Shown piece by piece: positions 3,829 to 24,846 of a DNA stretch of 64,000 nt; the stretch's first letter is position 1; every line of letters begins with the position of its first letter. Below the pieces are notes generated by a model. The model saw only the letters and a program-made list of their open reading frames with translations. It ran no database searches and was not told the DNA's origin. The position numbers and the translations under genes are program-made. The stretch covers positions 19,287 through 83,286 of IMG/VR virus record IMGVR_UViG_3300031143_000003; one strand, given 5' to 3'. The stretch comes from a virus.

Positions 3829-3831
3829 AAT

Positions 3832-5489: not shown

Positions 5490-6622
5490 TATTTCCAATT
5501 GTTTATTAATGATACAATGGTTTCACAATCGTCGGCTGTCATAAATGGATGTATTGGTAGACTAACCAGTCGCTTTGCATTATCCCTAGTACGGACATTT
5601 ACATTCTCAGAATACAATTGATCGGCATATGCAACTGTTTCTTCTATGCAAATTGGATAATGTATTCCAACTTGAACACCATTTGATTCCATATACTCCA
5701 TAAATTCAGATCGCCTATTTTGATTAATCAATATTGGGTACACATGGTAAACTTGACTATTGCACCAGTCTGCTGATGTTGCCAACGGGTTTTCAACGTT
5801 GATATTATCTATCTTAGAATAATACTTAGCCCATTTGCGTCTTGCCGAATTCCAGTCTGATAGGTGAACTAGTTTTTCGTCCAATATTGCAGCCTGTATG
5901 GTATCTAATCTATAATTTGCACCCTTTACAATGTGCTCATATTTTACAATCGATCCCATGTTCCGTATCAACCGGCACTGGCTGTCTAAATGTGTGTTAT
6001 TTGTTGTAATCAAACCAGCATCTCCAGCAGCTCCCAGATTCTTTCCTGGATAACATGAGAATGCTGATATATCTCCAAATGTTCCAACGTTCTGTCCATC
6101 ACAAACAGCGCCATGTGCTTGAGAGCAATCTTCCAATACTCGTGCATTTGTTGACTTAGCTATTTTCATTATGCTGGTCATATCACATGGATGGCCATAC
6201 AGGTGGACTGGAATTATCAGGTGTTCTGATTTGGAGTCGACACTTATTGTTTTAAGTAGTTCATCTTCCAATAATCCTACGTCCATTTGAAAATGATCAT
6301 CATGGTCAATTAGATGAATCGTACAATCGCCGTTTAATGCTTGTTCTGGGCCAAATACAGTTGCAATGAATGTATTTGCTTGAGTATATATGTGAACATG
6401 CCTATCAAATCCCAATGCTAGAGTTGCGACACGTAATGCATCTGTTCCGTTTGATACCCCAATACAATGTGTATTATTATTCCATTTTGCAAAATTGCGT
6501 TCGAATGTTGCAACATCGGGTCCAAGTATAAACGGACAGTTTTCCAATATTGATGTTATTCTTGGGTAGGCTGAATCCTTGATGATTTCCCACTGTTTTC
6601 CTAAATCGTTGAATTTGATCAT
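5489..6622 (-). CDS. DegT/DnrJ/EryC1 sugar aminotransferase
   Basis: A 377-residue PLP-dependent aminotransferase that adds an amino group to a keto-sugar nucleotide. Full length for the family. Visible landmarks are the PLP phosphate loop GVSNGTDALR (55-64), Asp165 in LEDCSQAHG, which contacts the pyridine nitrogen, and the PLP lysine Lys194 in FSCYPGKNLGA. With the neighbouring oxidoreductase, N-acetyltransferase and nucleotide-sugar dehydrogenase it matches the enzyme set of the WbpA-B-E-D pathway to 2,3-diacetamido uronic acids; WbpE would be its counterpart. The exact substrate is inferred. It starts one base after the stop of the dehydrogenase gene. Confidence 0.93.
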   Translation of the reverse strand: MIKFNDLGKQWEIIKDSAYPRITSILENCPFILGPDVATFERNFAKWNNNTHCIGVSNGTDALRVATLALGFDRHVHIYTQANTFIATVFGPEQALNGDCTIHLIDHDDHFQMDVGLLEDELLKTISVDSKSEHLIIPVHLYGHPCDMTSIMKIAKSTNARVLEDCSQAHGAVCDGQNVGTFGDISAFSCYPGKNLGAAGDAGLITTNNTHLDSQCRLIRNMGSIVKYEHIVKGANYRLDTIQAAILDEKLVHLSDWNSARRKWAKYYSKIDNINVENPLATSADWCNSQVYHVYPILINQNRRSEFMEYMESNGVQVGIHYPICIEETVAYADQLYSENVNVRTRDNAKRLVSLPIHPFMTADDCETIVSLINNWK

Positions 6623-6623
6623 A

Positions 6624-7511
6624 TTATTTCTCTATATTTTTATTTGAAATTACTGCTCGTCCTTCTTGTCCTTCCCAATCACGATTAACTCTAACGTCGT
6701 TGTTTTTGTCTGCAACGGCCTGTAGTAATATTGGGTTGATTCCAAGCTCAGTTGCTTGATGTATTAACGATGATAGATCTTTTGGAAAACAATGTCCACC
6801 GTAACCAAAATCTCCGTCTGGACCTGGTACATTCCAGTGCGAGTAACCTAACCTATCGTCATTGGTTGCATACTCTATTAATTTGTCGTAATCTAAGTCG
6901 AGTTTTTCACATATCTGATACATTTCATTTGCAAACGATACCTTTGTTGCCAAGAAACAGTTTGTTGTATACTTAACCATTTCAGCCATAGATGAACTTG
7001 TCTTTATAACTGGTACATTTGGAAATGCACGTTTAAATACCTGTTTAACAATGGTCGTTGCATCGCGAGGACCGCCAATAACGATTCTATTTTGATTTTT
7101 ATAATCATCAACTGCGTTAGCCTCTGTTAGGAATTCTGGATTGAATACAATGTCGATATGTGAAAGGGTATTGTTCCAATTTTGAGTTGTTCCTGGTGGG
7201 ATAGTTGATTTCACGACAAACGTTGAGCAGTATTGTACGTGCTTATCTGATAATGATGCGATATCATTAAGTTCAATCAATACGTCGTTTAGTATTCCCA
7301 AATGGCATGACCCATCCTCGCACATTGGTGTTGGTAAACAAACAAATATTACATCAGATACCTGAGATAAATGTTCGAATCCGCTCACACTCGAGCACTC
7401 ATCCTTGTATTTGTCATATGTTTCAACGTTAAAGTATTTTGACATACCTGCATTTACGGCTGATCCAACGAATCCTTGACCGACTATTCCTATTGTTCTA
7501 TTTCTTTCCAT
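6624..7511 (-). CDS. UDP-sugar 6-dehydrogenase, short form
   Basis: A 295-residue nucleotide-sugar dehydrogenase that oxidises C6 of a UDP-hexose to the uronic acid using NAD. The N-terminal Rossmann motif is IVGQGFVGSA (9-18). NPEFLTEANA near 125 and GGHCFPKDL with catalytic Cys241 are the family signatures. It is clearly shorter than the usual 390-450 residues: the C-terminal UDP-binding domain is missing, as in some other phage-encoded versions. Whether it uses UDP-glucose or UDP-GlcNAc cannot be told from sequence; the neighbours favour UDP-GlcNAc. TAATG overlap with the epimerase gene shows coupling. Confidence 0.88.
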   Translation of the reverse strand: MERNRTIGIVGQGFVGSAVNAGMSKYFNVETYDKYKDECSSVSGFEHLSQVSDVIFVCLPTPMCEDGSCHLGILNDVLIELNDIASLSDKHVQYCSTFVVKSTIPPGTTQNWNNTLSHIDIVFNPEFLTEANAVDDYKNQNRIVIGGPRDATTIVKQVFKRAFPNVPVIKTSSSMAEMVKYTTNCFLATKVSFANEMYQICEKLDLDYDKLIEYATNDDRLGYSHWNVPGPDGDFGYGGHCFPKDLSSLIHQATELGINPILLQAVADKNNDVRVNRDWEGQEGRAVISNKNIEK

Positions 7512-8365
7512 TACAGTTCCTTTATATAATCCATTAACCTGTCAACAGGCTTCCAATTCAAATTGTCTAGTGCGAAGTCATTCTCGCGTTTGGTTGCTCT
7601 GTAGTTACCAGGCTGATCACTTATGTATATACATTTAGTATTAAACCGACGGTTGAAGGCTCGGTAAACGTCATTCAGTGCATGGTTTGATCCAGTTCCA
7701 AGTTCCCAAGCATCATCTGGCGATACATCCGATTCGCTTATTTTTACTAGTCCATCAACAATATCGTCAATATGCGTAAAATCACGTTTCTGTTCACCAT
7801 CTCCAACAATTGTTATATCCTCTCCGTCTCTAGCTAAACGTCTCCATTTGCCAATTACCGCAGCCCAGTCGCCGTCTACAATTTCACCAGGTCCATATAC
7901 GTTATAGAACCTAACAATTTCTACGTCTAAGCCATACACTGACTTATACATTTTGCATAATTCTTCGCCTAAATGCTTCGCACTGGCATATGGCGATATA
8001 TGTGGATTATGCCATTTCGAAGATGATCCAGCATAAATAACCGATGCATTAATTTTTCTTGCATATCGCAATACTGCTTCTGTTCCGATTGTATTTACGC
8101 GGAATGTTTCAGATGGATTTTCAAATGATGGCTGTATTCTAGATAATGCGGCTAGATGGTATATTACATCAAAGTCGCTATCCATAAATGAAACGTTTTC
8201 AATGTCTCCAATGTGGTAGTTGCACCCATCCAATTCATTTGATACTAATCCACTATCATAATTGTCGATTGAATGTACATCATGGCCATTCAATATCAAC
8301 TGAGCTATCAGATTTGATCCAACAAACCCAGCTCCACCGGTAACCAATATTTTCTGTTTAGTCAT
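7511..8365 (-). CDS. NAD-dependent sugar epimerase/dehydratase
   Basis: An extended short-chain dehydrogenase/reductase of 284 residues acting on a nucleotide sugar, most likely a 4-epimerase of the GalE/WbpP type. TGGAGFVGSN (9-18) is the NAD-binding loop. Catalytic Ser115/116 (AGSSSKW), Tyr126 and Lys130 (SPYASAKHL) form the SDR triad, and RFYNVYGPG is the substrate-binding signature. UDP-glucuronate decarboxylase is an alternative but the active-site context fits an epimerase better. The gene overlaps the stop of the oxidoreductase gene by 8 bases. Confidence 0.87.
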   Translation of the reverse strand: MTKQKILVTGGAGFVGSNLIAQLILNGHDVHSIDNYDSGLVSNELDGCNYHIGDIENVSFMDSDFDVIYHLAALSRIQPSFENPSETFRVNTIGTEAVLRYARKINASVIYAGSSSKWHNPHISPYASAKHLGEELCKMYKSVYGLDVEIVRFYNVYGPGEIVDGDWAAVIGKWRRLARDGEDITIVGDGEQKRDFTHIDDIVDGLVKISESDVSPDDAWELGTGSNHALNDVYRAFNRRFNTKCIYISDQPGNYRATKRENDFALDNLNWKPVDRLMDYIKEL

Positions 8366-9236
8366 TTTCTAATATCTTCGTTATACTACGCGTTAATTGT
8401 TCTTGTTCAATATAAGAAAAATCCCTTACACCTAAAAATGATTCTATAGATATTTTCAGTGGGGATTCAGCATCAATTTCGATGTCAGCTGTCGAAGTGT
8501 TATTTGTATATGTTATTTTGCCAGTCATATCATCCCAATTCAAGTATGAATCATCTGCAAACGTTACAATTACTTCTCTATTCTTTTTAGCGTGTTCCCA
8601 ACTTGCATTGATAAATACACTAACCTTGCCGTATGTTAAACTACCAACACATGAATCGTCTTGTTCTGCCTGAACTGTGTCTCGACGATAATTAATCCAT
8701 GTTGACGATGATGGATCTACTCCAAACATTTTCTGGACAATTGATACATAGTGAGAGGCTAGATCATATTTTGCATTGCAGTCATATCGTACCGGTCCCT
8801 TATTTAGGAAATTCATAGATATCGATTTAACCTGTCCATATTTTTCTGAATTTACCATATCAATTATTGCATTTGCATGCATATTGAATGTAAATAGCCA
8901 ATCGACAAATAAGCCACAATTATTGTTTTTTGCTATAGTATACATTTCATCGACTTCAGCTGTTGTCATACCTAATGGTTTCTCACAAAATACGTCTACA
9001 CCATTCGATAAAAAATGCTTAACTACTTCATGATGGAATGTTGCAGGTACTGCGACGAATACCTTGTCTACATTTAGGGTAGTGTAATCTGACTCTAATT
9101 TGGTATAGTCACGTAATACGCCAGTATCTACATAGTTTGGTTCACATACAGTGACGTCCACTCCCAATCCAATTAGATTTTTGTATAGTATTTTACCCCA
9201 ATATCCAAATCCAACTAATCCTATTTTATTTTCCAT
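8358..9236 (-). CDS. Gfo/Idh/MocA-family oxidoreductase
   Basis: A 292-residue NAD(P)-dependent oxidoreductase, expected to oxidise C3 of a nucleotide uronic acid (WbpB/WlbA type) given its neighbours. The Rossmann loop is GLVGFGYWGK (6-15) and the family signature EKP is at 85-87 (FCEKPLGM). The C-terminal half has the alternating beta/alpha substrate domain typical of the family. Substrate is inferred from context only: an aminotransferase and an acetyltransferase are in the same operon. It overlaps the acetyltransferase gene by 11 bases. Confidence 0.88.
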   Translation of the reverse strand: MENKIGLVGFGYWGKILYKNLIGLGVDVTVCEPNYVDTGVLRDYTKLESDYTTLNVDKVFVAVPATFHHEVVKHFLSNGVDVFCEKPLGMTTAEVDEMYTIAKNNNCGLFVDWLFTFNMHANAIIDMVNSEKYGQVKSISMNFLNKGPVRYDCNAKYDLASHYVSIVQKMFGVDPSSSTWINYRRDTVQAEQDDSCVGSLTYGKVSVFINASWEHAKKNREVIVTFADDSYLNWDDMTGKITYTNNTSTADIEIDAESPLKISIESFLGVRDFSYIEQEQLTRSITKILEND

Positions 9237-9684
9237 TATTCATTCCCTTTATTTCGGCTGCTTTGCCATATACTATTGAGTGTGCTGGAACGTCTTTTGT
9301 TACGACAGCGCCTGCTCCAATAATTGCTCCGTATCCAATTGATACTGGCAAAATTGTTGCATTTGATCCAATCCTAACATTGTTACCAATGATTGTCCTA
9401 CGCTGGATCCAGTTTTCAAGTGGAGCATCGAATTTATCATTAATAAACATTACGCCATGTGCAATAAAACAATCGTCTCCGATTATCGTATCTGAACATA
9501 CAAATGTATGGCTGCTTATCCTGGTTCGTTTTCCAATTGATGCGCCTGATTGTATTTCTACAAATGGTCCAACAAATGATCCCTCTCCAATATTGCAGCC
9601 ATATATGTTAACTGGTTCAATTATTTCAACATCATCATGTATGTTGGAAGTACTATCGTTAATGTTCGCTTGTTTTGTTTTCAT
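9226..9684 (-). CDS. Left-handed beta-helix sugar N-acetyltransferase
   Basis: A 152-residue hexapeptide-repeat acyltransferase. Repeats of the type [IV]GxGxx run from about residue 28 (GCNIGEGSFVGPF) to 145, forming the trimeric left-handed beta-helix, and IGAGAVVTKDVPAHSIVYG near the end is the classic closing segment. It is probably the WbpD/WlbB counterpart that acetylates the 3-amino group made by the aminotransferase; substrate is inferred. The first ATG lies only 5 bases after a degenerate replication-type promoter motif, so the transcript may be nearly leaderless. Confidence 0.9.
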   Translation of the reverse strand: MKTKQANINDSTSNIHDDVEIIEPVNIYGCNIGEGSFVGPFVEIQSGASIGKRTRISSHTFVCSDTIIGDDCFIAHGVMFINDKFDAPLENWIQRRTIIGNNVRIGSNATILPVSIGYGAIIGAGAVVTKDVPAHSIVYGKAAEIKGMNNGK

Positions 9685-9688
9685 ACTG

Positions 9689-9711
9689 TAAATATAAGCA
9701 AAATAGCTTAC
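9689..9711 (-). promoter_or_regulatory. Degenerate bipartite promoter-like motif
   Basis: Sense strand has TATATTTA as in the bipartite family, but GTAA replaces GTCA at the 11-base upstream position. It ends 5 bases before the acetyltransferase start and overlaps the end of the 49-aa gene. Confidence 0.4.
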
Positions 9712-9857
9712 ACCGGAAAGTTTTTAACTAGTTTTTTTAGTTTAATTTCCAATCTAGCTAATTCTTTTGTCATTCCTTGCATTACCCATCCATCGTAATG
9801 TCCTCTTGCCGCTAGTTCCCCACGCAAGTAGTTTATTCTTTCTTGTAGTTTTTCCAT
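9708..9857 (-). CDS. Small hypothetical protein (49 aa)
   Basis: A 49-residue ORF starting MEKLQERINYLRGELAAR and ending VKNFPV. It is almost entirely charged amphipathic helix, with a DGWVMQGMTKEL middle. It has a well-placed AGGAAAA site 2-8 bases before the ATG and fills the space between two genes. It may form a coiled coil. Family not recognised; I count it as real because of the ribosome site and the codon pattern like its neighbours. Confidence 0.65.
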   Translation of the reverse strand: MEKLQERINYLRGELAARGHYDGWVMQGMTKELARLEIKLKKLVKNFPV

Positions 9858-9864
9858 TGTTTTC

Positions 9865-10302
9865 CTATTGTATTGTTCTGATGTCTAGATCAAATCTGTA
9901 GTCTATTAGTTGGACTAGTCCCATTTTATTTGGGAAGATTGTCCTATAACTATTTGAATACATTGAATCCATGTTACTAGACAATTTACTGTGATAGAAC
10001 CGCTGTGATGATTCATTCATGATCAATTTTGGTATTTCTAGTGCACGTTTTCTGTATTTCGGTATTATCCTAACACCAGTTCTCCTAGCCATTGCATTGA
10101 ACTGAATACTTGACATTAAATTTAAGTTTAGCACATGTACCTTGTTTTCCCAAATTGGATTTAGTACCAGCCACATGTAATTATCAGATTTATTGTCTAG
10201 GTTAGTATACCTATTTTGTATTACCATACCCTTCTGCAAAGCAGACTTTGGTATAATAACCGAAGATTGCTTTGCAGTTAAGTGTTGGTTATGATAATTC
10301 AT
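9865..10302 (-). CDS. Hypothetical protein (145 aa)
   Basis: A 145-residue soluble protein. Residues 20-60 (LQKGMVIQNRYTNLD, YMWLVLNPIW) look like a small beta-barrel with aromatic positions, followed by a basic stretch (RRTGVRIIPKYRKR). The C-terminal part, YRTIFPNKMGLVQLIDY, is again beta-rich. It begins directly after the stop of the preceding gene. I do not recognise the family, and placement among glycosyltransferases does not define its role. Confidence 0.7.
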   Translation of the reverse strand: MNYHNQHLTAKQSSVIIPKSALQKGMVIQNRYTNLDNKSDNYMWLVLNPIWENKVHVLNLNLMSSIQFNAMARRTGVRIIPKYRKRALEIPKLIMNESSQRFYHSKLSSNMDSMYSNSYRTIFPNKMGLVQLIDYRFDLDIRTIQ

Positions 10303-10779
10303 TTAGATGTCGCCTAAACTGTACCCATTAACGTTTTTTGCAGCTTCTATGAATGTAGCATAGTATTCTGCACCATCCATATCTATTTTCTGCGTATAAT
10401 CAACGTCCTTTGAATACTGTGCTTTTTCTGATATAGTCAGTGTTTTTATTTTGGCATAACACCACCTAATACTTTCAATTTGTTCTCCAACTGGAAATAT
10501 CATTGCCTCACCAGTATTCATTGTCGTTGGATACCAGTATTTTTCACCATCATCAAATCGAAGGGCCTTTATTGCTGCCGGCATCTTCTGCTCATATGTT
10601 GATATGTCAAAATCTGGGTTATCCTTGTGGTTTAATGGATAGTTTTGAGTATAATATCCAGAACTAAGGTCCATCTCAGATTGACCGTTTTTATCGTCGT
10701 ATTCAAGTAACACTTGTTGTTTTCCGGTTATTGGTGATTTTGCCCAATATTCTTCACCGATTTTTTCAATATCATTCAT
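10303..10779 (-). CDS. Hypothetical protein (158 aa)
   Basis: A 158-residue acidic, aromatic-rich soluble protein. Notable stretches are YWAKSPITGKQQVLLEYDD, SGYYTQNYPLN and EKYWYPTTM; the C-terminal third is helical. Its start overlaps the stop of the glycosyltransferase gene (TAATG), so translation is coupled to it. No family recognised; a partner or regulator of the sugar cassette would be guesswork. Confidence 0.7.
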   Translation of the reverse strand: MNDIEKIGEEYWAKSPITGKQQVLLEYDDKNGQSEMDLSSGYYTQNYPLNHKDNPDFDISTYEQKMPAAIKALRFDDGEKYWYPTTMNTGEAMIFPVGEQIESIRWCYAKIKTLTISEKAQYSKDVDYTQKIDMDGAEYYATFIEAAKNVNGYSLGDI

Positions 10780-12020
10780 TAGTTGCTCCCTATTTGTGGT
10801 ACATATTGTCCAATTATCTTATTAAAATCAGAATTCATTTTTTTGATTGAAAAATTATCCTTAATATACTGTGTCTGTTTTCTAGATCGTTGCATATGTT
10901 TCTTGTATTGCTTATGTACATCTCTGATTATTCCAGATGCATGATTATAGTCAACATAAAACCATTTTGATTCTGGCAATATTACATCCTTCCATACAGC
11001 TGACTTGTGCACGTTTCGTAATGTGCCTGTTAACGGTATACAGTGTTCAGATAAAAAGTCAACGTGTCCAGACCAGTTAGGGTACATTATTGGTTTACCG
11101 GTTATTCCGAATTCCAATAGTGGACGTCCAAATCCTTCGCCGTGCGTGAAGCTGATCATTGCCTTAACTTTATTGTGATTATATAAGCCATTTAATTCCT
11201 GTTGTGTCATGTCGCCATGTATCAGGTATATCTTTGGCAATATTGCACCATCTACCGATTTGTAAATTTTAGATATCTTTTCAAGTATAGATTCCCTATC
11301 GGTTAATGAGAATGTTGCAGATGACGTCTTAAGTATTAGCGCTGGCTGATTTCGCTGTGCAATGCCCTTAAATGTTTCTAAGAATGTACGAATCATGCCT
11401 CCAACATCTTTCCTATCATGTGAGAAATCACCAGCTAGCCAATGTCCAACAAATAGATAGCAGAATTCTTCTGGTATAGTTGATATGTCGGTTGATACTA
11501 TTTCAGGAATATCATCAGTCTTTATGAACGTAGACAAGTCAAGTCCCTCAAACAATACAACAATTTCGGGGTTAACTGATAACGATCTAACTGTCTCATT
11601 TGTCTTTGAATCTCGTATGTCAAACGTACTATTTTTCAAGGATGTTTTTGCATGCTCAGATGGCACAATTATTAAATCCATGTTATTGCATCCTTCAACC
11701 CATTGACTAGATGCAGAAGTTGTTTCAATACCCGCTGTTATTCCAATGTTATATTTTCCAACCTTTTGAAATTCATTTGGTACAGTTATTTGTACCCAAA
11801 TATCTGGTTGTTCATCAAAGTTTTTGCGCATGATACGACTAGTTATTTCAATATCGTCATCCGTTAGTGCGTTTCTACTACATGATCCCCAACGCTGATC
11901 CATTATTTTTACGTCGAATCTGTTCATTGCAATTAGACTTCTAATTATGTCTCGACTGTGATCACCATACCCGCTTCTACTCGATGCTGGGCAACTTATA
12001 ATTAATGTCTGTTTATTCAT
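10779..12020 (-). CDS. Family 1-type glycosyltransferase
   Basis: A 413-residue GT-B fold glycosyltransferase. The N-terminal domain opens LIISCPASSRSGYGDHSR, where SGYG fits the glycine-rich acceptor loop. The C-terminal nucleotide-sugar domain carries GEGFGRPLLEFG (294-305), the E-x7-E-like motif that grips the donor, followed by GKPIMYPNWSGH. Acceptor unknown: host surface glycan, virion protein or DNA sugar chain are all possible. It is coupled to the next glycosyltransferase by TAATG. Confidence 0.87.
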   Translation of the reverse strand: MNKQTLIISCPASSRSGYGDHSRDIIRSLIAMNRFDVKIMDQRWGSCSRNALTDDDIEITSRIMRKNFDEQPDIWVQITVPNEFQKVGKYNIGITAGIETTSASSQWVEGCNNMDLIIVPSEHAKTSLKNSTFDIRDSKTNETVRSLSVNPEIVVLFEGLDLSTFIKTDDIPEIVSTDISTIPEEFCYLFVGHWLAGDFSHDRKDVGGMIRTFLETFKGIAQRNQPALILKTSSATFSLTDRESILEKISKIYKSVDGAILPKIYLIHGDMTQQELNGLYNHNKVKAMISFTHGEGFGRPLLEFGITGKPIMYPNWSGHVDFLSEHCIPLTGTLRNVHKSAVWKDVILPESKWFYVDYNHASGIIRDVHKQYKKHMQRSRKQTQYIKDNFSIKKMNSDFNKIIGQYVPQIGSN

Positions 12021-13423
12021 TATACTAGGGCTCCTGATGGGTATTGTTGTTTTTTGATTGATGCATCTATTAACGTGTATCGTTGTCTAGGCTTAAACGT
12101 TGATATGCATGTGTCAATTGACTTCGACATTGTATCTGTCATACCTTTGGCATTAAATCCATTTTCAATTGCCCAATCTCTTCCAATTGCGCCATGATCT
12201 GATCTATTTGATTTTGGCATATTGTGCCAATACATTAACCCAGATGTTATCTGGTCAATACTAACCCTAGAATCATATATGTATGGTGTTGGTGGAGAGC
12301 CTTGTAAATTTATTTGGGGCCATAATGGATACGTCCATGATCCGTGATCCTCACTTATTTTTCCAGTGCTATTGCTTGGTGTATCTACAGTAAAATCATC
12401 TATTGTAATATACTCTCCTCGATTGTTTCTGAATCCCATTTGATCTTGTAGTCCACCTAGTACTGATGCTATTGTTGGTGTTCCTGACATAATTGCCTCC
12501 ATGTGGGATAATCCAAATCCTTCAGCTGAGCTTGGATTACATACGACATCTGCCATATTGTACAAATAGTTCATGGCTATATTTGGTAGCTTTTCTGCAC
12601 TGAATATAACGTCATATTCCGGACATAGTGCTGCGACTACTGCTGGTAAGTCGGTACCATTCTCATCAACTGGATCAGTATGCAATAACAATGCGCATTT
12701 TGACGATTCTTCAGGCGTCAATTTGTCACACATAGCTTTAAATCCAACTATTAAATCGGATATTGATTTTCGTCTAATGTTTCTGCTGTTTAGTAATGCA
12801 ATGAAGTCGTAATCTTTTCCAGATGTAGCAGTTTTTTTGAATGCTTCATATTTTGCATCATTTACTATTGGAAAAAATACATTTTCATCTATACCATGTG
12901 GAACGTATGTTAGGTCTACACCATCTAGTCTTGGTTTACGTTGACATACATGTTTGTTTATATTGTATGTCTGTTTTGATATTGCCATAAGCAAATCGCA
13001 TGATTCATATGCATTTTCATTCCAATGTGGGTATGGTAAATCGTCCCAAATATTGTAATACATAATTGGAATGTGCTGGCGGATCTCATGCTCCATCTGA
13101 TATAGCCAACCCCAAAATCTAGGATCAGTAAAATGCAATATAGCATCAATTTCTTCAGTTGCCAATATATGTCGTATTAAATCGGGAGTACCATATCCAG
13201 AAACGGGATATATCTTAACACTTGCATCCAATACACCGGTATCATCTGCTACAGCTTGTGATAAATCCAATTGCTTTCCAGCCTCAGGATGATTCATAGC
13301 TCCACCGATCTGTACCCAGTCGTACCTATCTACTGTTCCAGTGATTATTGATTTTGACATTGTACCAATGCCAGAATTCAATCTAAAGTCATCACCAAGG
13401 AATAGTATTTTCTTCTTCTTCAT
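12020..13423 (-). CDS. Family 1-type glycosyltransferase
   Basis: A 467-residue GT-B enzyme. The N-terminus ILFLGDDFRLNSGIGTMS has the SGIGT acceptor-side loop. VPHGIDENVF near 175 and the donor motif EGFGLSHMEA (301-310) followed by GTPTIASVLGG are typical of GT4-type enzymes. It is the first gene of the left-hand glycosyltransferase run; a late-type motif lies 45 bases upstream. The substrate is not deducible. Confidence 0.88.
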   Translation of the reverse strand: MKKKKILFLGDDFRLNSGIGTMSKSIITGTVDRYDWVQIGGAMNHPEAGKQLDLSQAVADDTGVLDASVKIYPVSGYGTPDLIRHILATEEIDAILHFTDPRFWGWLYQMEHEIRQHIPIMYYNIWDDLPYPHWNENAYESCDLLMAISKQTYNINKHVCQRKPRLDGVDLTYVPHGIDENVFFPIVNDAKYEAFKKTATSGKDYDFIALLNSRNIRRKSISDLIVGFKAMCDKLTPEESSKCALLLHTDPVDENGTDLPAVVAALCPEYDVIFSAEKLPNIAMNYLYNMADVVCNPSSAEGFGLSHMEAIMSGTPTIASVLGGLQDQMGFRNNRGEYITIDDFTVDTPSNSTGKISEDHGSWTYPLWPQINLQGSPPTPYIYDSRVSIDQITSGLMYWHNMPKSNRSDHGAIGRDWAIENGFNAKGMTDTMSKSIDTCISTFKPRQRYTLIDASIKKQQYPSGALV

Positions 13424-15251: not shown

Positions 15252-16880
<1,629 letters not shown>

Positions 16881-17168
16881 TTATGCCTCTAATATGGTTA
16901 GTACATCTACTTCACGGAGAATCAAAAAATCCTCTCCATTTAATTCCAATTCTTTTGCGCCATACTTTGGATATACAACCGTATCTCCGACTTTACATTG
17001 CATTTTACTTCTATTTCCATTCTCAAGAACTCGTCCTGGACCAACTGATACGATTTCACCAATTAGTGTTCCTTCTTGGGTTGTATCTGGTATAATAACT
17101 CCACCTGACGTTTGTCCGGTTTGTGTTGATTGCTTCAATATGACTTTATCGCCTACTGGTATAAACAT
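16881..17168 (-). CDS. groES: Co-chaperonin GroES
   Basis: About 95 residues, the normal GroES length. FIPVGDKVILKQ opens the beta-barrel, the mobile loop reads TGQTSGGVIIPDT (GGVIIP is the GroEL-binding tripeptide region), and GDTVVYPKYGAKEL with EDFLILREVDVL closes it. It caps GroEL and probably helps fold the large capsid protein, the job of T4 gp31; that role is inferred. The ATG at 17168 is 8 bases after AGGAGA, better spaced than the ATG at 17174. A bipartite promoter-like motif ends 32 bases upstream. Confidence 0.95.
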   Translation of the reverse strand: MFIPVGDKVILKQSTQTGQTSGGVIIPDTTQEGTLIGEIVSVGPGRVLENGNRSKMQCKVGDTVVYPKYGAKELELNGEDFLILREVDVLTILEA

Positions 17169-17199
17169 GCTCATTCTCCTGTTGTTTAGATTTATACTG

Positions 17200-17222: not shown

Positions 17223-19661
17223 TTACGACACTTTTTCTTTATATTTTTTTAATATTTCTGATACTTGTGGTATTATGCTGAATTCATCGAGTTGATCTAA
17301 TACTTGCTTCTTAAAAAATGTGTCATAATCTATGTCAAATTTATCAGTTGCGTCTATTAGGTGCAAATCATCTTCATTTAGGCATATTGCTCTGTGTCTT
17401 TCACGAGGCTTAAGCTCTTCTTCGCATTTAGATATAACATAATACAATAGCGGATTGTCAACGTTGGTTATATTTGTACCAAGTATATCATTCGTCCATT
17501 TTGCTGCCTTTACGTGCTGTGGCATTGTTTTCTTATATTCATCAAATCTTCTCGAGAATGATTTTGCCAATCCTAAATCAGCATAATCAACTGATTCAAC
17601 CTCTTCACGTAATCGGACTAGATGGCCAAGTGTTAATTGTTTTTTAACAGATAATTCGGCCAATTCATCTAACTTCACCTTCATGAATTTAGGTGCATCC
17701 TTTCTAATAATGTTTAGACCCCTAATGTATCGTTTATTTGACCCCTTCTGTATTGAGTAATATCGTTTCTTAGATGTACCAAAGTAGATGTGATCTAGAT
17801 CCTTTTCAAACTTTAAGTTCATAAAGAAATAGTCTTCATCAATTGCAGTTGCAAACTCTGGCGCAAACTCTGTTTTGAGCTGTTCATCAAATACCAATAG
17901 ATTCTTCTTCAGTTCAGGTATAGGTTTTCCGTTTAATTCAATGAAGATTGAATCGGTATCTCCATATAAAATATGATGTCCCAAATCTCGTTGCATTTTT
18001 ACTGATGCGAATTTCAATGCATTTCTAGCAAAGTAGGTGGTTGCATCTGCGCATTCTGGTTTATATAGTCTAAAGAAATTGAATCCCATTGCACCATACG
18101 TTGAGTTTAGAATAAGCTTAATCGCACCCTGTTTCTTTTCTGCTGAATACGCTTCATCTTCTGTCTCATATTCATTTGCGTCTAGTTTGCGGTTTATTTC
18201 AACACGCATTAGGAATAGATCCTTTAATAGATACGGTATAATTCCCAGTTTGTGTTTATGTCCATAGAATATGTACCTTCCACCATATATACTTTCATCT
18301 ACGCCAGTATCTATATAATCGATTTTCTGCGATTTGAGTTGGTCAACTATTTCGTCAATATCCATTCCAGCAATTTCACATTGTTGCTTCGACGCTATGA
18401 ATGTTTCAGGACTAATATTGAACGCCATAATTGTTGTTGGATATAACGAAGTATAATCCAATACTGCGACATCCCTATGTGCACCAGGCTTAGTTGGATC
18501 CAATACCATTGCACCAGCAAATGGTTGCCGTGGACTGGTTACCCTAGTTGGGAACACCATTTTTCCGTGGAATTCCTTTAGAATATAATTATCGACAATC
18601 ATTGATTTGAATAATACCAATCCAACGGATGGTAAGTTTGCAATCTGCTGCAGTGTATAATACAGTTCAAATATATCTAGCTTTTCGGCTATTTCAACTA
18701 ATATTTCAACATCCCTTATTCCATATTTTAGGAATCCAGAATAGTCGTCCATCCAATTTTTCCAAGTTGATTGTGTCAATTTTTCTATACTTGGATCATT
18801 TAGTATTTCTTTTGCAGCCGTTGCAAGTTTCCAGTTTGGTAAATTATAACCAAGATCCTGTAATGCATCCATCATATCGATGTGATCACGCCCAGTCATA
18901 AATATTTTCCAATATTCCCTACTCTTATATATTTTAATATAGTTTGTTGGGGATAGTTTCTTGTAGTCTATACCAATGTTCTTTGACCTGTTTATGATGT
19001 ATGGTAAATCATACTGACTAGAATACCATCCTGTCAATATGTCTACGTTGTACATATCTATCATATTATAGAATGTTAGTAGCATTTCATGTTCAGTCTT
19101 CGTGAAAATGAATACTTTGTTACCTTCAACAACTGATTTTGGCTCATCGTATGTTTTTGTGTGTTCAGGATGCCAAGACAATACATAGTATTTCTTATGC
19201 ATATTTGAGTACATCTGAATCGATGTAATTGGCATTCGAGCTACTTCCGGACTGTTTGCTGAATTGTCATTTGGATCATACCATGTTTCAATATCAAAGT
19301 ACATTAGGTGACGTTTGTCTGACCACTCTAATTTCTTATCTAATACATACTTGAATTCAGGTTGAACATCAGCCTCAAACGTTCGAGTTGGATGCAACTT
19401 AGATATTGCACGTACATTCTTTACGGATGTATAGAATATCTTTCTAGCTGGTTCATCGTATATACTTTTTACATGTTCATCGCTAATCTCGAATCCAGTA
19501 TAATCAATCAAGTCATCCAAATGTTCTTCCGCGTAGTAAAAATAATCCTTAAAGTTATTCACCTTAGTTACATTTTTACCTTCAGCATCGTAGCCAAATT
19601 GATGTATTTTCCAGAGTCCCCTATTGAACTCTGAACATACTCTTGCTAATTTAAAACTCAT
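17223..19661 (-). CDS. 43: Replicative DNA polymerase, family B (T4 gp43 type)
   Basis: An 812-residue family B polymerase with proofreading exonuclease, the phage replicase. Exonuclease motif I is YFDIETW (Asp123, Glu125), and YGIRDVEI with Asp317 is motif III. Polymerase motif A is DYTSLYPT (Asp402), motif B is KLILNSTYGAMG (515-526), and motif C is YGDTDS (Asp568, Asp570), followed by KKRYY. It is shorter than T4 gp43 (898). No clear ribosome site precedes the ATG. Clamp and clamp-loader genes are not in this window. Confidence 0.97.
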   Translation of the reverse strand: MSFKLARVCSEFNRGLWKIHQFGYDAEGKNVTKVNNFKDYFYYAEEHLDDLIDYTGFEISDEHVKSIYDEPARKIFYTSVKNVRAISKLHPTRTFEADVQPEFKYVLDKKLEWSDKRHLMYFDIETWYDPNDNSANSPEVARMPITSIQMYSNMHKKYYVLSWHPEHTKTYDEPKSVVEGNKVFIFTKTEHEMLLTFYNMIDMYNVDILTGWYSSQYDLPYIINRSKNIGIDYKKLSPTNYIKIYKSREYWKIFMTGRDHIDMMDALQDLGYNLPNWKLATAAKEILNDPSIEKLTQSTWKNWMDDYSGFLKYGIRDVEILVEIAEKLDIFELYYTLQQIANLPSVGLVLFKSMIVDNYILKEFHGKMVFPTRVTSPRQPFAGAMVLDPTKPGAHRDVAVLDYTSLYPTTIMAFNISPETFIASKQQCEIAGMDIDEIVDQLKSQKIDYIDTGVDESIYGGRYIFYGHKHKLGIIPYLLKDLFLMRVEINRKLDANEYETEDEAYSAEKKQGAIKLILNSTYGAMGFNFFRLYKPECADATTYFARNALKFASVKMQRDLGHHILYGDTDSIFIELNGKPIPELKKNLLVFDEQLKTEFAPEFATAIDEDYFFMNLKFEKDLDHIYFGTSKKRYYSIQKGSNKRYIRGLNIIRKDAPKFMKVKLDELAELSVKKQLTLGHLVRLREEVESVDYADLGLAKSFSRRFDEYKKTMPQHVKAAKWTNDILGTNITNVDNPLLYYVISKCEEELKPRERHRAICLNEDDLHLIDATDKFDIDYDTFFKKQVLDQLDEFSIIPQVSEILKKYKEKVS

Positions 19662-19668
19662 ATTTTTA

Positions 19669-20106
19669 TTATTTTACACCAGTTGATCCAAACCCACCAG
19701 TACCACGTGTAGATGACTCGGAATATAATATATTTTCTTTGACTATTTCAACAGTTGGATCACCTAATGGCAATAAAACAAATTGTACTATCTTATCACC
19801 TGCCTCAATATGTTGAACTTGTTGACCAACATTGGTTAAGTGAATATGTATTTCACCTTGATAACCACTATCTACAACACATGCACCAACTTGTAAGTTT
19901 TTTCTAGTTGCTACTCCAGATTTATTGAATGCTATTAGTGCGAATCCAGCCGGCACATTAACCATTATTCCTGATGGTATCATTACTGCATCACCAGCGA
20001 GTAATGTTGCAGTATGGAAATCCGTTGGGACGAAGAAATCAATTCCAGCGTCTGTTGAGTTTGCCCTAGTTGGGGATTTAACGTCTCTAACTTTTGATAT
20101 TTTCAT
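19669..20106 (-). CDS. dut: dUTPase
   Basis: A 145-residue trimeric dUTPase that hydrolyses dUTP to dUMP, keeping uracil out of DNA and feeding dUMP metabolism. The five conserved motifs are visible: TDAGIDFF, FNKSGVATR (a variant of the usual RSG loop), VVDSGYQGEIHI, and the C-terminal GTGGFGSTG that closes over the substrate. It overlaps the stop of the glucosyltransferase gene (TAATG). Confidence 0.95.
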   Translation of the reverse strand: MKISKVRDVKSPTRANSTDAGIDFFVPTDFHTATLLAGDAVMIPSGIMVNVPAGFALIAFNKSGVATRKNLQVGACVVDSGYQGEIHIHLTNVGQQVQHIEAGDKIVQFVLLPLGDPTVEIVKENILYSESSTRGTGGFGSTGVK

Positions 20107-21236
20107 TATAACCTTTCCTTTATTATTGCTGCAAATGTCTCTGCAAATTCAGTTTTATCTAATCCGCGTTTTACGTCTGCATATTGTTCGCGAATTAATT
20201 TGTCAAATGCAGACGGATTATTTTTTAAGAATACTAATCTTGATTCAACGTCTTCTCTACTGTCAACGTAGCAAAAGTTGCGAGTCAATTCATTCCTAAA
20301 TATTTTCATTTGGGGATCATATTCCCTATCAATAAAGCATACAACGTTTCCTAATATCGCCTCATTTGTCCGATTCGATATTGCAGCGTTCTCATATTTT
20401 TTGTCACTAATTGTTACCGTAGCTATAGACTTCTGATATGCACTAAAGAAATCTCTATGTGCAACCTTCTTTCCAAATGATGGATAACGCATGTCACCTA
20501 CTCGTTTTGGATTAAAATGTTTATGTTTAATATTACCAAACATAAGTACAGCCGATGTTTCAGCATATCCGAAATAGTATTTTAGCATTTTATCCTGTCT
20601 ATGTCCACCTCTAAATGTTCCACCATATACTAAATCAAGCATTCTATCCTCAATTGGTATAATCGGTATTGGCTCATATTCGTGAACAAGATATTCATGG
20701 AATGGGAAATACACAATATCTGCGTATTCTATTTCACGTTTTTCAAGTATAACCTTTAATCCATCGATGTCGTATATCTGCGATATCATGACAATGTCGG
20801 TTCTAGTTATCTCGATTTGATCTTGAGTATATTTGTTTTTCCATTCGTATTTGACTTGCTTGTCTTCTACACCTTTCCACATTTGAGCTAGAGGCAGTAA
20901 CCAGTCAGTCAACACGTAGTATACGGGACAACTTGATTTGTTTATAAATGAATATGTCATTAGGTCGCCACGGGTTTCACAACCTCCGTAGAAATTAACG
21001 TTACCATTTAATACAACCAATGCGTCATATTCATTGTATGCTGATTCATCAAAATCGTTTATATCGTGAAACGTAGCTTCAGGCAATTCAACCCAATTCC
21101 TAGTTTTGATTGTATAGTAATGTACATCATGACCACATCTATGTAGCATCTTTATAACTGCATGTACTTCGTCTGTCAATAGACTACCATTCGCAGCAGT
21201 TATGTTTGCTCCAATCTTTAATACATTTATTTTCAT
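20106..21236 (-). CDS. bgt: DNA beta-glucosyltransferase (T4 BGT homologue)
   Basis: A 376-residue GT-B enzyme that by homology moves glucose, or another sugar, from UDP-sugar to 5-hydroxymethylcytosine in DNA. It aligns from end to end with T4 BGT (351 aa): MKINVLKIGANI, NVNFYGG, YYVLTDWLLPLAQ with Asp111 at the place of T4 catalytic Asp100, LDLVYGGTFRGGHRQ with Arg209/Arg213 at the UDP-binding arginines, ISDKKY (Asp278) and Glu292. The dCMP hydroxymethylase gene lies just upstream in the same operon, which supports the call. The sugar donor could differ from T4. It overlaps its neighbour by ATGA. Confidence 0.85.
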   Translation of the reverse strand: MKINVLKIGANITAANGSLLTDEVHAVIKMLHRCGHDVHYYTIKTRNWVELPEATFHDINDFDESAYNEYDALVVLNGNVNFYGGCETRGDLMTYSFINKSSCPVYYVLTDWLLPLAQMWKGVEDKQVKYEWKNKYTQDQIEITRTDIVMISQIYDIDGLKVILEKREIEYADIVYFPFHEYLVHEYEPIPIIPIEDRMLDLVYGGTFRGGHRQDKMLKYYFGYAETSAVLMFGNIKHKHFNPKRVGDMRYPSFGKKVAHRDFFSAYQKSIATVTISDKKYENAAISNRTNEAILGNVVCFIDREYDPQMKIFRNELTRNFCYVDSREDVESRLVFLKNNPSAFDKLIREQYADVKRGLDKTEFAETFAAIIKERL

Positions 21237-21508
21237 TGTTGTTCCTTTATATAGTTATCTAATCCACCGATATATGCTACAGCGTCGAGTAGATTATCTT
21301 CCCTGTAATTATATGAGTGTCTTGACATTTTCAATGCAACAAGTACAATAAACATATCCTCTCCAGAAAATGATTTACCAGACATTCCGCTTGCAATCAT
21401 TGCTGCTCTGTCCATACCTTCACTAAATGGTCCATATTGGCGCTCTTTTTCGTCTGATCGATTATTCACGATCGCATCAGCTTGTGCTAAGATTGATTTT
21501 GTTTTCAT
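21233..21508 (-). CDS. DUF6378-like protein
   Basis: A 91-residue protein with ILAQADAIVNNRSDEKERQYG, an all-helical middle (DMFIVLVALKMSRHSYN) and DNLLDAVAYIGGLDNYIKE. This order of a Y-G-P segment, LxxxKMSR and DxxAYIGG matches DUF6378-type phage proteins, which resemble MazG/HisE-like all-alpha folds; a pyrophosphatase function is not demonstrated. It sits between the hydroxymethylase and the glucosyltransferase and overlaps both by ATGA-type junctions, so it probably belongs to the same DNA-modification or nucleotide pathway. Confidence 0.75.
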   Translation of the reverse strand: MKTKSILAQADAIVNNRSDEKERQYGPFSEGMDRAAMIASGMSGKSFSGEDMFIVLVALKMSRHSYNYREDNLLDAVAYIGGLDNYIKEQQ

Positions 21509-22332
21509 ATAAATAGTTTTTTTGCTGTTTCTTTGGTGAATGTTAAGATCTCATCCTTTGTCATATCATCTACTGGCATATACAATTTATTATCAATAAT
21601 ATAATCAGTTGTAATATGTCTATGCAATATACTTGATTTGGTTGATGCGTCTACATTGTCATGGTAGATCTTGTCTCGCATGTCGTAGTGCGCTTCATAC
21701 AAATGTAGACTTCCTGCATAATGGTAATATGACCCAAGCTCTAAATCAGGATATATTTCACGAAGATCATTTAACATCAGTTGTTGAAACAGCGCAAATG
21801 TGTATACATCATTGCATAATCCAAATATAACATCGTTTGATCGCATATTTACACCCAAATGCAATTCATTATTTCGAATAAAGAATTGCAAATATTGTGT
21901 GCATGGAAGATCCTGTTTGTTTTTTGTCTTATGATGCGGCTGATGTATTACAATAGTGCATCGTCTGGAATCAATGTCTCGATTGAATTCTGATTTTATC
22001 CAGTCCCATTGTTCGCCCAATATATACGTGCCATAGTTTGATTCAACTTCATCTTGATTATCCTTGATCTTCAGCCAAATTCCAGCATGCTTACCAATAT
22101 TATTAGTACGCTTATTCTGCGACAAATACCACAAGAACTCCATAACTGAATAGTTTTCGTTGAATTTTCTAGATGGAAAATCAATTGATAATCGAGTTGG
22201 ATCATTTAACACAAAAGACTGAAACAAAAGTTCAGTCTGTGTGCTACCATTACTATGTATCTCTGATCCGTATTCAGAGATTTCGTACAATTTGTCAAAA
22301 AACAAATCATGTAGACTATTGAATCTATTCAT
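21505..22332 (-). CDS. 42: dCMP hydroxymethylase-like (thymidylate synthase fold)
   Basis: A 275-residue member of the thymidylate synthase superfamily. The catalytic cysteine is Cys144 (DLPCTQYLQFF), the phosphate site is RSND (164-167), and HLYEAH near 210 matches the H-x-Y motif. In thymidylate synthase the segment after GLP is FN, whose Asn selects dUMP; here GLCND places Asp175 there, the change known from T4 gp42 dCMP hydroxymethylase (Asp179). I therefore call it hydroxymethylase, making 5-hydroxymethyl-dCMP with methylene-tetrahydrofolate. A DNA glucosyltransferase downstream agrees. Deoxyuridylate hydroxymethylase is a less likely alternative. Confidence 0.83.
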   Translation of the reverse strand: MNRFNSLHDLFFDKLYEISEYGSEIHSNGSTQTELLFQSFVLNDPTRLSIDFPSRKFNENYSVMEFLWYLSQNKRTNNIGKHAGIWLKIKDNQDEVESNYGTYILGEQWDWIKSEFNRDIDSRRCTIVIHQPHHKTKNKQDLPCTQYLQFFIRNNELHLGVNMRSNDVIFGLCNDVYTFALFQQLMLNDLREIYPDLELGSYYHYAGSLHLYEAHYDMRDKIYHDNVDASTKSSILHRHITTDYIIDNKLYMPVDDMTKDEILTFTKETAKKLFI

Positions 22333-22388: not shown

Positions 22389-22778
22389 TTATTCTTTACT
22401 AAATTTCTGTCGTACCCTATCTGATATTGGTACCGCATTTCCTTGATCGTCTATTCTTACAAATTTTATATTTGTTGCCAATATTGTATGCTGCTGACCA
22501 GTATATACATTGTGTGCTCTTGCTTCCAATGTTAGTGTTACTGATGAATTGCCTATTTTGTTTACACAAGCATATATTTTCAGTAACTGTCCCTGTCTAG
22601 CAGGCCGTACAAATTCACATTTGTCTATTAACACTGTTACAACTCGAGGAGTGTCGCAAACTTGCGCTGCGAACCCTGCTCCTGCTGCATCGATCCATGC
22701 TAATAGTTTTCCTCCGAAGAGGTTACCGTGAAAACCTAAATCAGATGTTTTTACAATGTGTGTTGATATTAAATCCAT
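22389..22778 (-). CDS. Acyl-CoA thioesterase, hotdog fold (YciA type)
   Basis: A 129-residue single hotdog-domain thioesterase that would hydrolyse acyl-CoA. HGNLFGGKLLAWIDAAG (17-33) holds the loop and catalytic Asp30 of the YciA/BACH group; FVRPARQGQLLKIYACV and SVTLTLEARA are the beta strands of the hotdog sheet. Length is normal for YciA. This is an unusual gene for a phage replication region and may act on host lipid metabolism. It lies between the RNR-linked small ORF and the hydroxymethylase operon. Confidence 0.87.
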   Translation of the reverse strand: MDLISTHIVKTSDLGFHGNLFGGKLLAWIDAAGAGFAAQVCDTPRVVTVLIDKCEFVRPARQGQLLKIYACVNKIGNSSVTLTLEARAHNVYTGQQHTILATNIKFVRIDDQGNAVPISDRVRQKFSKE

Positions 22779-22811: not shown

Positions 22812-22934
22812 TTAACTTCCACATGCTTCACAATCATCATTGTCAATTGAACATGCCTCAGGTTGTTTTTTATCTGATAAATCGGTTAACCATGAATCAA
22901 AATTGTCTTGTTCTTCCGTCTCATTTGGTCCCAT
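22812..22934 (-). CDS. 40-aa RNR-linked peptide with C-terminal CxxC
   Basis: A 40-residue ORF whose ATG overlaps the stop of the ribonucleotide reductase (TAATG). It is acidic, with a NFDSWLTDLSDKK helix and the end ACSIDNDDCEACGS, giving three cysteines including a CxxC two residues before the stop. Such cysteine tails terminate many class II reductases, where they shuttle electrons. Here the reductase already ends with its own CAGGAC pair, so this may be a separate redox or regulatory peptide. No homologue known to me. Confidence 0.6.
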   Translation of the reverse strand: MGPNETEEQDNFDSWLTDLSDKKQPEACSIDNDDCEACGS

Positions 22935-24802
22935 TATAATGCTCCTATTTCACATGCACCACCGGCACAAGCTAATTCTCCACCTAAGTCAGTTTCATCA
23001 GATAATTCAACAACCTTTGTTAGGTCAATTGTATGCAATGATGCAACTAGTTCATGATATTTTTCTTTTGTTATGTCTTCAAACGGAGCCTGTACGTACG
23101 TTCCTCCATTATATGGTAAAACAGATAGTCCATTGTATGAATGTCTATTTTTCCACATCCATTTTCCTGCTTCATCCCATTCGTCATCTTTCAATGATAT
23201 TGTTGCTGAAACATTGTGCGAATTGGATCCGTTTCTATGTCCAGGTGCAACCCATTCTGATGCGACCTTTTTTACACGTTCAAGTAAATCGAATGCAGAT
23301 TCTGTTCTAAGTATCGATCCGTCTGGTGCTTTTTGTGGAATAGATATAACAGCTGTATCATGTGGTCTAAAGAAATCATCTTCAATTAGTTCAGGATGAT
23401 ATATTTGTAAGTATGAATATATTGATTCGTTTTTTCCAACTCTTAATCTTCTAACATAATAATCATTATGCCATGCATGTATACCTGAACTTGTTCCCAG
23501 TACTAGACTGGTTGTTCCAGCTGGTTTCACTGTTGTTGTTCTGGCTGCTGGATTGATTCCAATTACCTTAGCTATTCGACTGTTTTCAGACTTAACCAAT
23601 TTTGCAGCTGATGTCATGTCATAATTTAATACTTTTCCAGAACCTATTCCAGTCATAGAAATTCCAACTAGTGCGTCACGTTCAGTTGTTTCCTTCCAAA
23701 TTTCACGAAGATAATGGAAGTCAGTATATCCAGCTTGCAATGTTCCAATGAATGTTGCAGCCTTTACCCTAGCATCGAAATCATCCTGGGATTCAATGTT
23801 ACTAACGTTAACTTCACATAAATTGCAGAATTGATATGGACGTAATGCTATTTCACAGCATGGGTTGGTACCCCAATCTTTGTCATTATTTAGATATATT
23901 CCAGGTTCACCAGCACCAGATAATTCAACACGTTTCCATATGTCCATGAAAAACTTTTCTGTTATCTTATGTCGCATTAGTACAGCTGAGTTATTTGCTC
24001 TACCACGTTGTGGATTCATTTCCCACCAATCACCAGCTTTACACGAAATCATATCTTCATCATGTGCACTAAATAGACTGATTAGTGCTGCTCTTCTAAT
24101 TCCACCAGCCAATACTGCATCTGCAATGTGACATACAATGTCATGTACTTCAATTGGAGATAATCCGTCGCCATCGGCTTTTGTGTCCAATATTCCAGTT
24201 ATCTTTAATACACATTCCTTTAATGGTTGTGGGCCTGGGGCTTTACCACCAGATGTAACCAACATTGCACCCTTTGGACGAATATCAGAGAAATCGAAGT
24301 CTATTCTAGAACTTCGTCTATTTCCCATGTAAGATTTCATTAACAATTTGATTGCATCAGACCAACCTTCGATTGAATCACCAATTAGGAATCGTCTAAC
24401 ACGTTTGTTATATGGTTTGTTTATTTTTGGTAAGTTTGATACGTGGTGATTTTGTACACTATATCCTACACCACATCCAGATAACAATAAAAACATTGTC
24501 TCACTGAATGAATCAATATGATCAATTGGTAAATACGAGCAATTGTATAATCTATTTGGTGAGATTTCAATTGGTTTACCACCAAACTGTAGACTTCTCA
24601 TTGAAGGCAACACTTTTTTATCAAATACGAATTTATAATTCTCATCGATTTGATCAGTTAGTTTTGGGTAACGTTTCTTGTGCATATTCATATTTCGCGT
24701 AACCAGTTCACTCCAGGTTTCTCTACGACTTAATTCCGGCAAGTACTTTGCATATTTCATGTGTACTGTTAGATCTGACAGAATTTTATTGGAAATTTCC
24801 AT
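22934..24802 (-). CDS. nrdJ: Class II ribonucleoside-triphosphate reductase
   Basis: About 622 residues, an adenosylcobalamin-dependent, monomeric reductase of the Lactobacillus leichmannii RTPR type that makes dNTPs. PELSRRETWSELVTR opens the catalytic barrel, NCSYLPIDH and SGCGVGYSVQ carry active-site cysteines, and NPCCEIALRPYQFCNL is the radical-site loop. The C-terminus ELACAGGACEIGAL holds the reducing cysteine pair. It is shorter than the 739 residues of L. leichmannii. The ATG at 24802 (MEISNK) is 9 bases after AAGGA; that at 24811 is too close. B12 must come from the host or environment. Confidence 0.92.
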   Translation of the reverse strand: MEISNKILSDLTVHMKYAKYLPELSRRETWSELVTRNMNMHKKRYPKLTDQIDENYKFVFDKKVLPSMRSLQFGGKPIEISPNRLYNCSYLPIDHIDSFSETMFLLLSGCGVGYSVQNHHVSNLPKINKPYNKRVRRFLIGDSIEGWSDAIKLLMKSYMGNRRSSRIDFDFSDIRPKGAMLVTSGGKAPGPQPLKECVLKITGILDTKADGDGLSPIEVHDIVCHIADAVLAGGIRRAALISLFSAHDEDMISCKAGDWWEMNPQRGRANNSAVLMRHKITEKFFMDIWKRVELSGAGEPGIYLNNDKDWGTNPCCEIALRPYQFCNLCEVNVSNIESQDDFDARVKAATFIGTLQAGYTDFHYLREIWKETTERDALVGISMTGIGSGKVLNYDMTSAAKLVKSENSRIAKVIGINPAARTTTVKPAGTTSLVLGTSSGIHAWHNDYYVRRLRVGKNESIYSYLQIYHPELIEDDFFRPHDTAVISIPQKAPDGSILRTESAFDLLERVKKVASEWVAPGHRNGSNSHNVSATISLKDDEWDEAGKWMWKNRHSYNGLSVLPYNGGTYVQAPFEDITKEKYHELVASLHTIDLTKVVELSDETDLGGELACAGGACEIGAL

Positions 24803-24846
24803 AAACTTCATTCCTTATATATTATTAACATTTTGTTTTTGGTAAC

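Follow-up and report, generated by a model that had tools for sequence, protein, structure and literature searches.

In phage T4 (Straboviridae), gp42, the product of gene 42, makes 5-hydroxymethyl-deoxycytidine monophosphate (5-hydroxymethyl-dCMP), the DNA beta-glucosyltransferase (BGT) encoded by b-gt glucosylates the DNA, and gp56 both provides dCMP for the hydroxymethylase and excludes plain deoxycytidine triphosphate (dCTP) from DNA. In gp42, Asp179 sets cytosine specificity, and Ser94, Tyr96 and Asp145 position and activate water so that a hydroxymethyl group is formed and not a methyl group; mutants of these residues lose or cut the product (PMC6400193). In the MetaGPA cytosine-modified phages, a thymidylate synthase (TS)-fold enzyme with Asp177 is likewise accompanied by a second enzyme decorating 5-hydroxymethylcytosine (hmC), in that case a 5-hmC carbamoyltransferase (PMC8670742).

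Here we describe a related locus in a 64,000-nucleotide stretch of viral DNA (the window; positions 19287-83286 of the linear IMG/VR record IMGVR_UViG_3300031143_000003, 147,286 bases), and searches for missing genes covered the whole 147-kb contig. As far as the hydroxymethylase and BGT steps are concerned, homology and conserved residues make it highly probable that this locus is a cytosine-hypermodification cassette like T4 gp42/beta-GT. Beside the genes of these two enzymes, it contains genes for a dUTPase-fold enzyme and a DUF6378 protein (INTERPRETING):

21505..22332, minus strand: predicted TS-fold dCMP hydroxymethylase (T4 gp42-like), 275 amino acids (Pfam, solved-structure search, residue alignment)
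21233..21508, minus strand: DUF6378 protein, 91 amino acids, five helices (Pfam profile and structure model)
20106..21236, minus strand: T4 DNA BGT homologue, 376 amino acids (Pfam, PHROG, solved-structure match)
19669..20106, minus strand: trimeric dUTPase-fold nucleotide pyrophosphatase, 145 amino acids (PF00692 and solved dUTPases)

The open reading frames (ORFs) of the first three are all intact. Since start and stop codons overlap from the TS-fold gene through the dUTPase gene, whose first base is also the BGT gene's last, this stretch is arranged as in an operon. The original prediction, made from the letters alone, had named the first three genes (20106-22332) with Asp175 and Asp111 as key residues, and all of this proved correct when the ORFs and alignments were checked.

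As in T4, homologous enzymes with the same catalytic residues are encoded by adjacent genes with replication genes nearby. In contrast to T4, where the enzymes are about 28% identical to those of the window, DUF6378 and a trimeric dUTPase are built into the cassette, and ThyX and a class II ribonucleotide reductase (RNR) take the place of td and NrdAB. In Enterococcus phage VPE25 and Lactobacillus phage ATCCB, a hydroxymethylase with the gp42 residue set also adjoins a BGT homologue (24-30% identical to that of the window), with a dUTPase between them in VPE25, but both phages lack DUF6378. The enzyme identities are strong, and from them we infer the chemistry of a T4-type hmC-glycosylation pathway, here in a phage lineage and a gene arrangement that are both new. 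The most informative additions are the linkage of DUF6378 with a pyrophosphatase and an exchangeable decoration slot.

Predicted hydroxymethylase and glucosyltransferase homologue

The TS-fold protein matched the Pfam family Thymidylat_synt (8e-17), and its best solved relatives were two pyrimidine hydroxymethylases, the CMP enzyme MilA (3.8e-20) and the dCMP enzyme T4 gp42 (2.4e-19), with the top thymidylate synthase at 2.9e-8. Comparison with T4 gp42 at 16 catalytic positions showed that 15 were identical and the remaining one was conservative (Val85 to Ile). The TS-fold catalytic set was present (the nucleophile Cys144, Glu65 and the phosphate-binding Arg123/Arg124), the cytosine-selecting Asp175 aligned with T4 Asp179 in place of E. 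coli Asn177, and Ser98, Tyr100 and Asp141 were the counterparts of the hydroxylation set Ser94, Tyr96 and Asp145. In E. coli ThyA the cytosine position is occupied by Asn and the Ser and Asp of the water-activating set are absent; the dUMP hydroxymethylase SPO1 gp29 has, as expected, Asp145 together with Asn at the cytosine position. Relatives of the window enzyme also conserve the gp42-type catalytic set, and every relative with a readable motif has Asp at the cytosine position. TS positions 177 and 147, the two most associated with modified cytosine in environmental phage DNA (PMC8670742), are Asp and Thr in the window enzyme, both in the cytosine state. The Pfam, MilA and gp42 matches and the alignment with Asp179 thus bear out the predicted TS-fold protein with Asp175, which is very likely a dCMP hydroxymethylase of the T4 gp42 type.

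The neighbouring protein matched the T4 BGT structure 1bgt (1.8e-35), PF09198 (1.2e-19; 71.1 bits, cut-off 27) and PHROG 7922 (residues 1-372 aligned, 6.7e-55), in agreement with the earlier claim of a whole-length alignment to T4 BGT with Asp111 at the place of Asp100. Asp111, the counterpart of the catalytic Asp100 of T4, is invariant across the alignment of T4, Enterococcus, Lactobacillus and jumbo-phage relatives. The T4 residues Arg191, Arg195, Asp258, Arg269 and Glu272, whose roles we presume from the T4 structure, correspond to Arg209, Arg213, Asp278, Arg289 and Glu292, and Tyr261 likewise has an identical counterpart. These results suggest that the 376-residue protein is very likely a T4-type DNA BGT homologue, predicted to act on hmC-DNA. 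A chance resemblance is excluded because of the E-values and the gene order kept in independent contigs.

In the proposed pathway, the TS-fold enzyme would use methylene-tetrahydrofolate to convert dCMP to 5-hydroxymethyl-dCMP, as homology and the conserved catalytic residues suggest. Kinases, possibly those of the host, would carry the product to hydroxymethyl-dCTP for incorporation by the phage polymerase; none was identified on the contig, where a P-loop scan for an hmCMP kinase gave five motif matches, none of them in a nucleotide-kinase-like ORF. By its homology and conserved residues, the BGT homologue would then move a hexose (in the simplest case glucose, with host UDP-glucose as donor) onto the hydroxymethyl group in DNA, and the sugar would shield the phage DNA from nucleases. 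All residue-level and context tests spoke for the two activities originally predicted, dCMP hydroxymethylation and glucosylation of hmC-DNA.

It is very improbable that the TS-fold enzyme instead makes 5-methyl-dCMP or dTMP while the glycosyltransferase homologue acts elsewhere. The outcome is not fixed by the fold alone, and TS N177D mutants are cited in PMC8670742 as yielding 5-methyl-dCMP. However, Asp141, Ser98 and Tyr100 are gp42 hydroxylation residues whose T4 mutants lose or drop activity, and the adjacent BGT-family enzyme requires a hydroxymethyl acceptor. dTMP is already covered by a separately encoded ThyX, so the TS-fold enzyme, the product of the only TS-fold gene on the contig, is not needed for it. 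Methylation and dTMP synthesis were therefore rejected on these residues and the separate ThyX; the same applies to dUMP methylation, the alternative set against the original prediction, which ThyX and the presence of Asp141 and Ser98 at the gp42 hydroxylation positions contradict. As for the donor sugar, glucose is the simplest reading. With hydroxymethylation unchanged, the BGT homologue might use a non-glucose nucleotide sugar, perhaps from the phage's own genes at window 3583-13423 (UDP-sugar dehydrogenase, epimerase, MocA-type oxidoreductase, DegT aminotransferase, hexapeptide acyltransferase and glycosyltransferases), and we regard this as unlikely. RB69 DNA carries arabinose on hmC, so the sugar can change (PMC6024577), and in phage ATCCB a UDP-galactopyranose mutase gene lies directly after BGT (L016:6649-8879), so that its DNA sugar may not be glucose. 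Yet Flavobacterium phage immuto has a comparable sugar cluster by the same neighbours (DUF3310 and PD-(D/E)XK), with no annotated BGT in the corresponding region and a guanine-modification pathway there instead. It is therefore probable that the window cluster serves a separate purpose, the making of surface or virion glycans, and it is an unlikely source of the donor sugar. In composition it resembles a UDP-diacetamido-uronic-acid pathway.

DUF6378 and the proposed decoration slot in other phages

Scanning viral contigs with a BGT profile yielded 38 loci. The close relatives (57-77% BGT identity, plus the near-identical L008) all keep hydroxymethylase-DUF6378-BGT, and the order of helicase, RNR, dUTPase, family B DNA polymerase (PolB) and GroES is also kept wherever the contig reaches. 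Pairs of hydroxymethylase and BGT also occur in T4-like, Enterococcus, Lactobacillus and jumbo phages, and in distant lineages that lack DUF6378, Enterococcus phages among them, a dUTPase adjoins BGT.

A scan for DUF6378 found 453 contigs, and among the best 80, which were kept, a hydroxymethylase lay within the 3-kb flanks in 75; the TS-fold genes near these loci had Asp wherever the motif was readable, and never Asn. Duplicate removal left 86 distinct DUF6378 loci, with a hydroxymethylase nearby in 82 (a rate biased by loci that came from the hydroxymethylase scan itself), a dUTPase in 56 and MazG in 18. dUTPase and MazG never occurred together, an exclusion with a probability of about 6e-11 under independence, uncorrected for shared ancestry. 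At least five gene orders were found: hydroxymethylase-DUF6378-(BGT)-dUTPase, DUF6378-MazG/dUTPase-dCMP deaminase-hydroxymethylase, dUTPase-DUF6378-hydroxymethylase, DUF6378-hydroxymethylase-MazG, and DUF6378-methyltransferase-hydroxymethylase-MazG. That the linkage recurs in different orders suggests that function, and not the inheritance of a single block, keeps these genes together. One locus (L120:2998-3567) carries an in-frame fusion of DUF6378 with a MazG pyrophosphohydrolase domain.

The window DUF6378 protein matched PF19905 at 1e-8 (35.7 bits, gathering cut-off 27.1), and its structure model has five helices with a predicted local distance difference test (pLDDT) score of 92. DUF6378 stays with the hydroxymethylase at loci lacking BGT, so its place is more likely in the nucleotide step than in the sugar step, and it may be a dedicated small partner of the hydroxymethylation or pyrophosphatase step. 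The earlier guess that this gene assists the module gains from its strong linkage to the hydroxymethylase, BGT-less loci included, with its role shifted to what is probably the nucleotide step. To our knowledge, DUF6378 has had no specific pathway context, and the linkage described here would be the first.

The position of the decorating enzyme appears exchangeable. Hydroxymethylase-bearing DUF6378 loci contained BGT in 16 cases, a protein of about 310-356 amino acids from another family (phrog_13881) in 29 and both in none. Members of this family (e.g. L136:9727-10794, L163:9527-10579 and L104:412-1344) share an invariant GDSH, a conserved GNID and an invariant SVH motif. By sequence the family had no Pfam or PDB match, and its PHROG function is given as unknown; a structure model (pLDDT 87) matched GDSL/SGNH esterases, sialate O-acetylesterases and the catalytic domain of the PatB O-acetyltransferase. 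On the basis of this model, the SGNH-fold enzyme is possibly an hmC O-acyltransferase. Such an enzyme is a reasonable guess because 5-carbamoyloxymethylcytosine offers a precedent for a second enzyme decorating hmC (PMC8670742). If true, hmC O-acylation would be an unreported DNA modification, and the exchangeable slot points to a candidate new family of DNA-modifying enzymes. A myo-inositol-1-phosphate synthase gene follows the SGNH-fold gene in L136 (10898-14041) and L163 (10585-11784), and the same L136 segment also encodes a protein with a 5-hmdU DNA kinase helical domain.

Possible supply of dCMP by a nucleotide pyrophosphatase

The dUTPase-fold enzyme matched PF00692 (8.3e-20) and dUTPases in the PDB (1.6e-16), and its motif II reads NKSG rather than PRSG. 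The chances that it hydrolyses dCTP are about evenly balanced. In that case it would act on dCTP as well as dUTP, yielding dCMP for the hydroxymethylase and barring plain cytosine from the DNA, as gp56 does in T4. That the pyrophosphatase slot is held either by a dUTPase-fold enzyme or by MazG fits this role. PF01503, a domain of the MazG superfamily, is found together with TS in cytosine-modified contigs, according to a text that names no DUF families or dUTPase (PMC8670742). Similarly, the purZ-mazZ-datZ cluster of S-2L links a base-making enzyme to a MazG-type nucleotide pyrophosphatase supplying its substrate, although the base is another one and the base-making enzyme is unrelated (PMC8342488).

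Several observations weigh against the proposed pathway. Homologues of gp56, gp1, alpha-glucosyltransferase (alpha-GT), Cd, DenA and Alc were not found on the contig, which is possibly incomplete, nor was MazG; the alpha-GT search detected T4's own enzyme as a control. The dCTPase (gp56) and alpha-GT that the original prediction had proposed to look for are thus both missing from this contig. The DUF6378 model gave no match in the PDB at E <= 0.001 and none to MazG, so the idea that DUF6378 is a disguised MazG or gp56 dCTPase was rejected for want of fold support; beyond these loci, DUF6378 forms a wider family in phages. Apart from NKSG, the dUTPase motifs are ordinary and the nearest solved relatives are dUTPases, which weighs against the putative dCTP hydrolysis. 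NKSG also occurs in the related dUTPase of Croceibacter phage P2559Y, which has no hydroxymethylase annotated in the 18-kb stretch examined, and is therefore not diagnostic of dCTP specificity. In this phage, a 174-residue protein encoded beside the dUTPase (gp36; L211:9441-9965) resembles, judged by eye, a degenerate member of the TS fold that lacks the catalytic Cys.

These dUTPase findings speak for another explanation of this one step, whose probability we put a little short of even: the enzyme would remove dUTP only, its position would reflect ordinary clustering of nucleotide metabolism genes, and dCMP would come from the host or another dCTPase. The dUTPase adjoining BGT in VPE25, which has an ordinary RSG motif, agrees with this; VPE25, however, carries a second dUTPase elsewhere. 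Direct linkage of hydroxymethylase and dUTPase recurs across lineages and gene orders, and the dUTPase exchanges with MazG; the MazG of one cyanophage favours dGTP and dCTP (PMC6850273). Taken with the counts above, we tentatively propose an undescribed but widespread cassette for hydroxymethyl-dCMP supply, made up of hydroxymethylase, DUF6378 and a dNTP pyrophosphatase, in which the dUTPase-fold enzyme or MazG would be the dCTPase, DUF6378 a dedicated partner, and the decorating enzyme a plug-in, either BGT or the SGNH-fold enzyme; we hold this to be somewhat less likely than not. Where phages other than the T4-like ones obtain their dCMP would thereby become directly testable.

Host range and neighbouring genes

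The terminase and capsid proteins were nearest to those of Flavobacterium phage immuto and a Microcystis phage, and further off to those of Rhodothermus phage RM378, and the dUTPase was nearest to those of Croceibacter, Bacteroides and Prevotella phages. Cellular genomes were scanned for relatives of BGT that might hint at the host, and none was found; AG-rich (Shine-Dalgarno-type) motifs lay upstream of 45 of the 85 longer ORFs, which is a weak host test. A Bacteroidota host is likely. With this locus, cytosine hypermodification of the T4 kind would extend to a group of uncultured phages that probably infect Bacteroidota, organised there in a compact cassette that includes a DUF6378 gene and a dedicated slot for a nucleotide pyrophosphatase.

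The original prediction had held that a Bacteroidota host would extend this chemistry well beyond enterobacterial phages. The host part stands as likely; the range itself is less new than that, since TS/hydroxymethylase and BGT are annotated together in Enterococcus VPE25 and Lactobacillus ATCCB, and isolated Bacteroides fragilis phages already carry annotated dCMP hydroxymethylases. Pyle et al. in 2024 reportedly described diverse viral DNA glycosyltransferases. The B. fragilis phages (BF503P2 and relatives, OP172671) share with the window Asp-type hydroxymethylases near a window-related dut gene and a Bacteroidota host, but neither BGT nor DUF6378 was present among the genes examined. In BF503P2, segment 6325-10523 (L212) encodes two diverged Asp-type hydroxymethylases, dut and a P-loop kinase-like gene, and offers a cultivable test system. 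The corresponding region of immuto (L055 18607-37015) encodes QueC/D/E/F, FolE and DpdA, a queuosine-type guanine-modification pathway, which suggests that related phages modify their DNA in alternative ways.

The genes around the cassette are as follows:

22934..24811, minus strand: class II-type (B12-dependent) RNR, 625 amino acids, upstream dNTP supply (syntenic in relatives)
22389-22778, minus strand: 4HBT thioesterase, between RNR and the hydroxymethylase (Pfam)
17223..19661, minus strand: PolB, expected to incorporate modified dCTP (syntenic in relatives)
15252-17174 of the window, minus strand: GroEL and GroES pair, identified by visual reading of the sequence (immuto has a matching GroES-GroEL pair)
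6493-7146 of the contig: ThyX (PF02511, 1.8e-50)

On the minus strand, the order of transcription is RNR, thioesterase, TS-fold gene, DUF6378, BGT, dUTPase, PolB, GroES and GroEL. The 4HBT thioesterase gene is missing from the close relative L009. At contig 134635-143985 (L005/L006), several small ORFs open with a common leader-like peptide, MLIFNYNKLNKPTM, which is probably a repeated upstream regulatory DNA element that has been read through.

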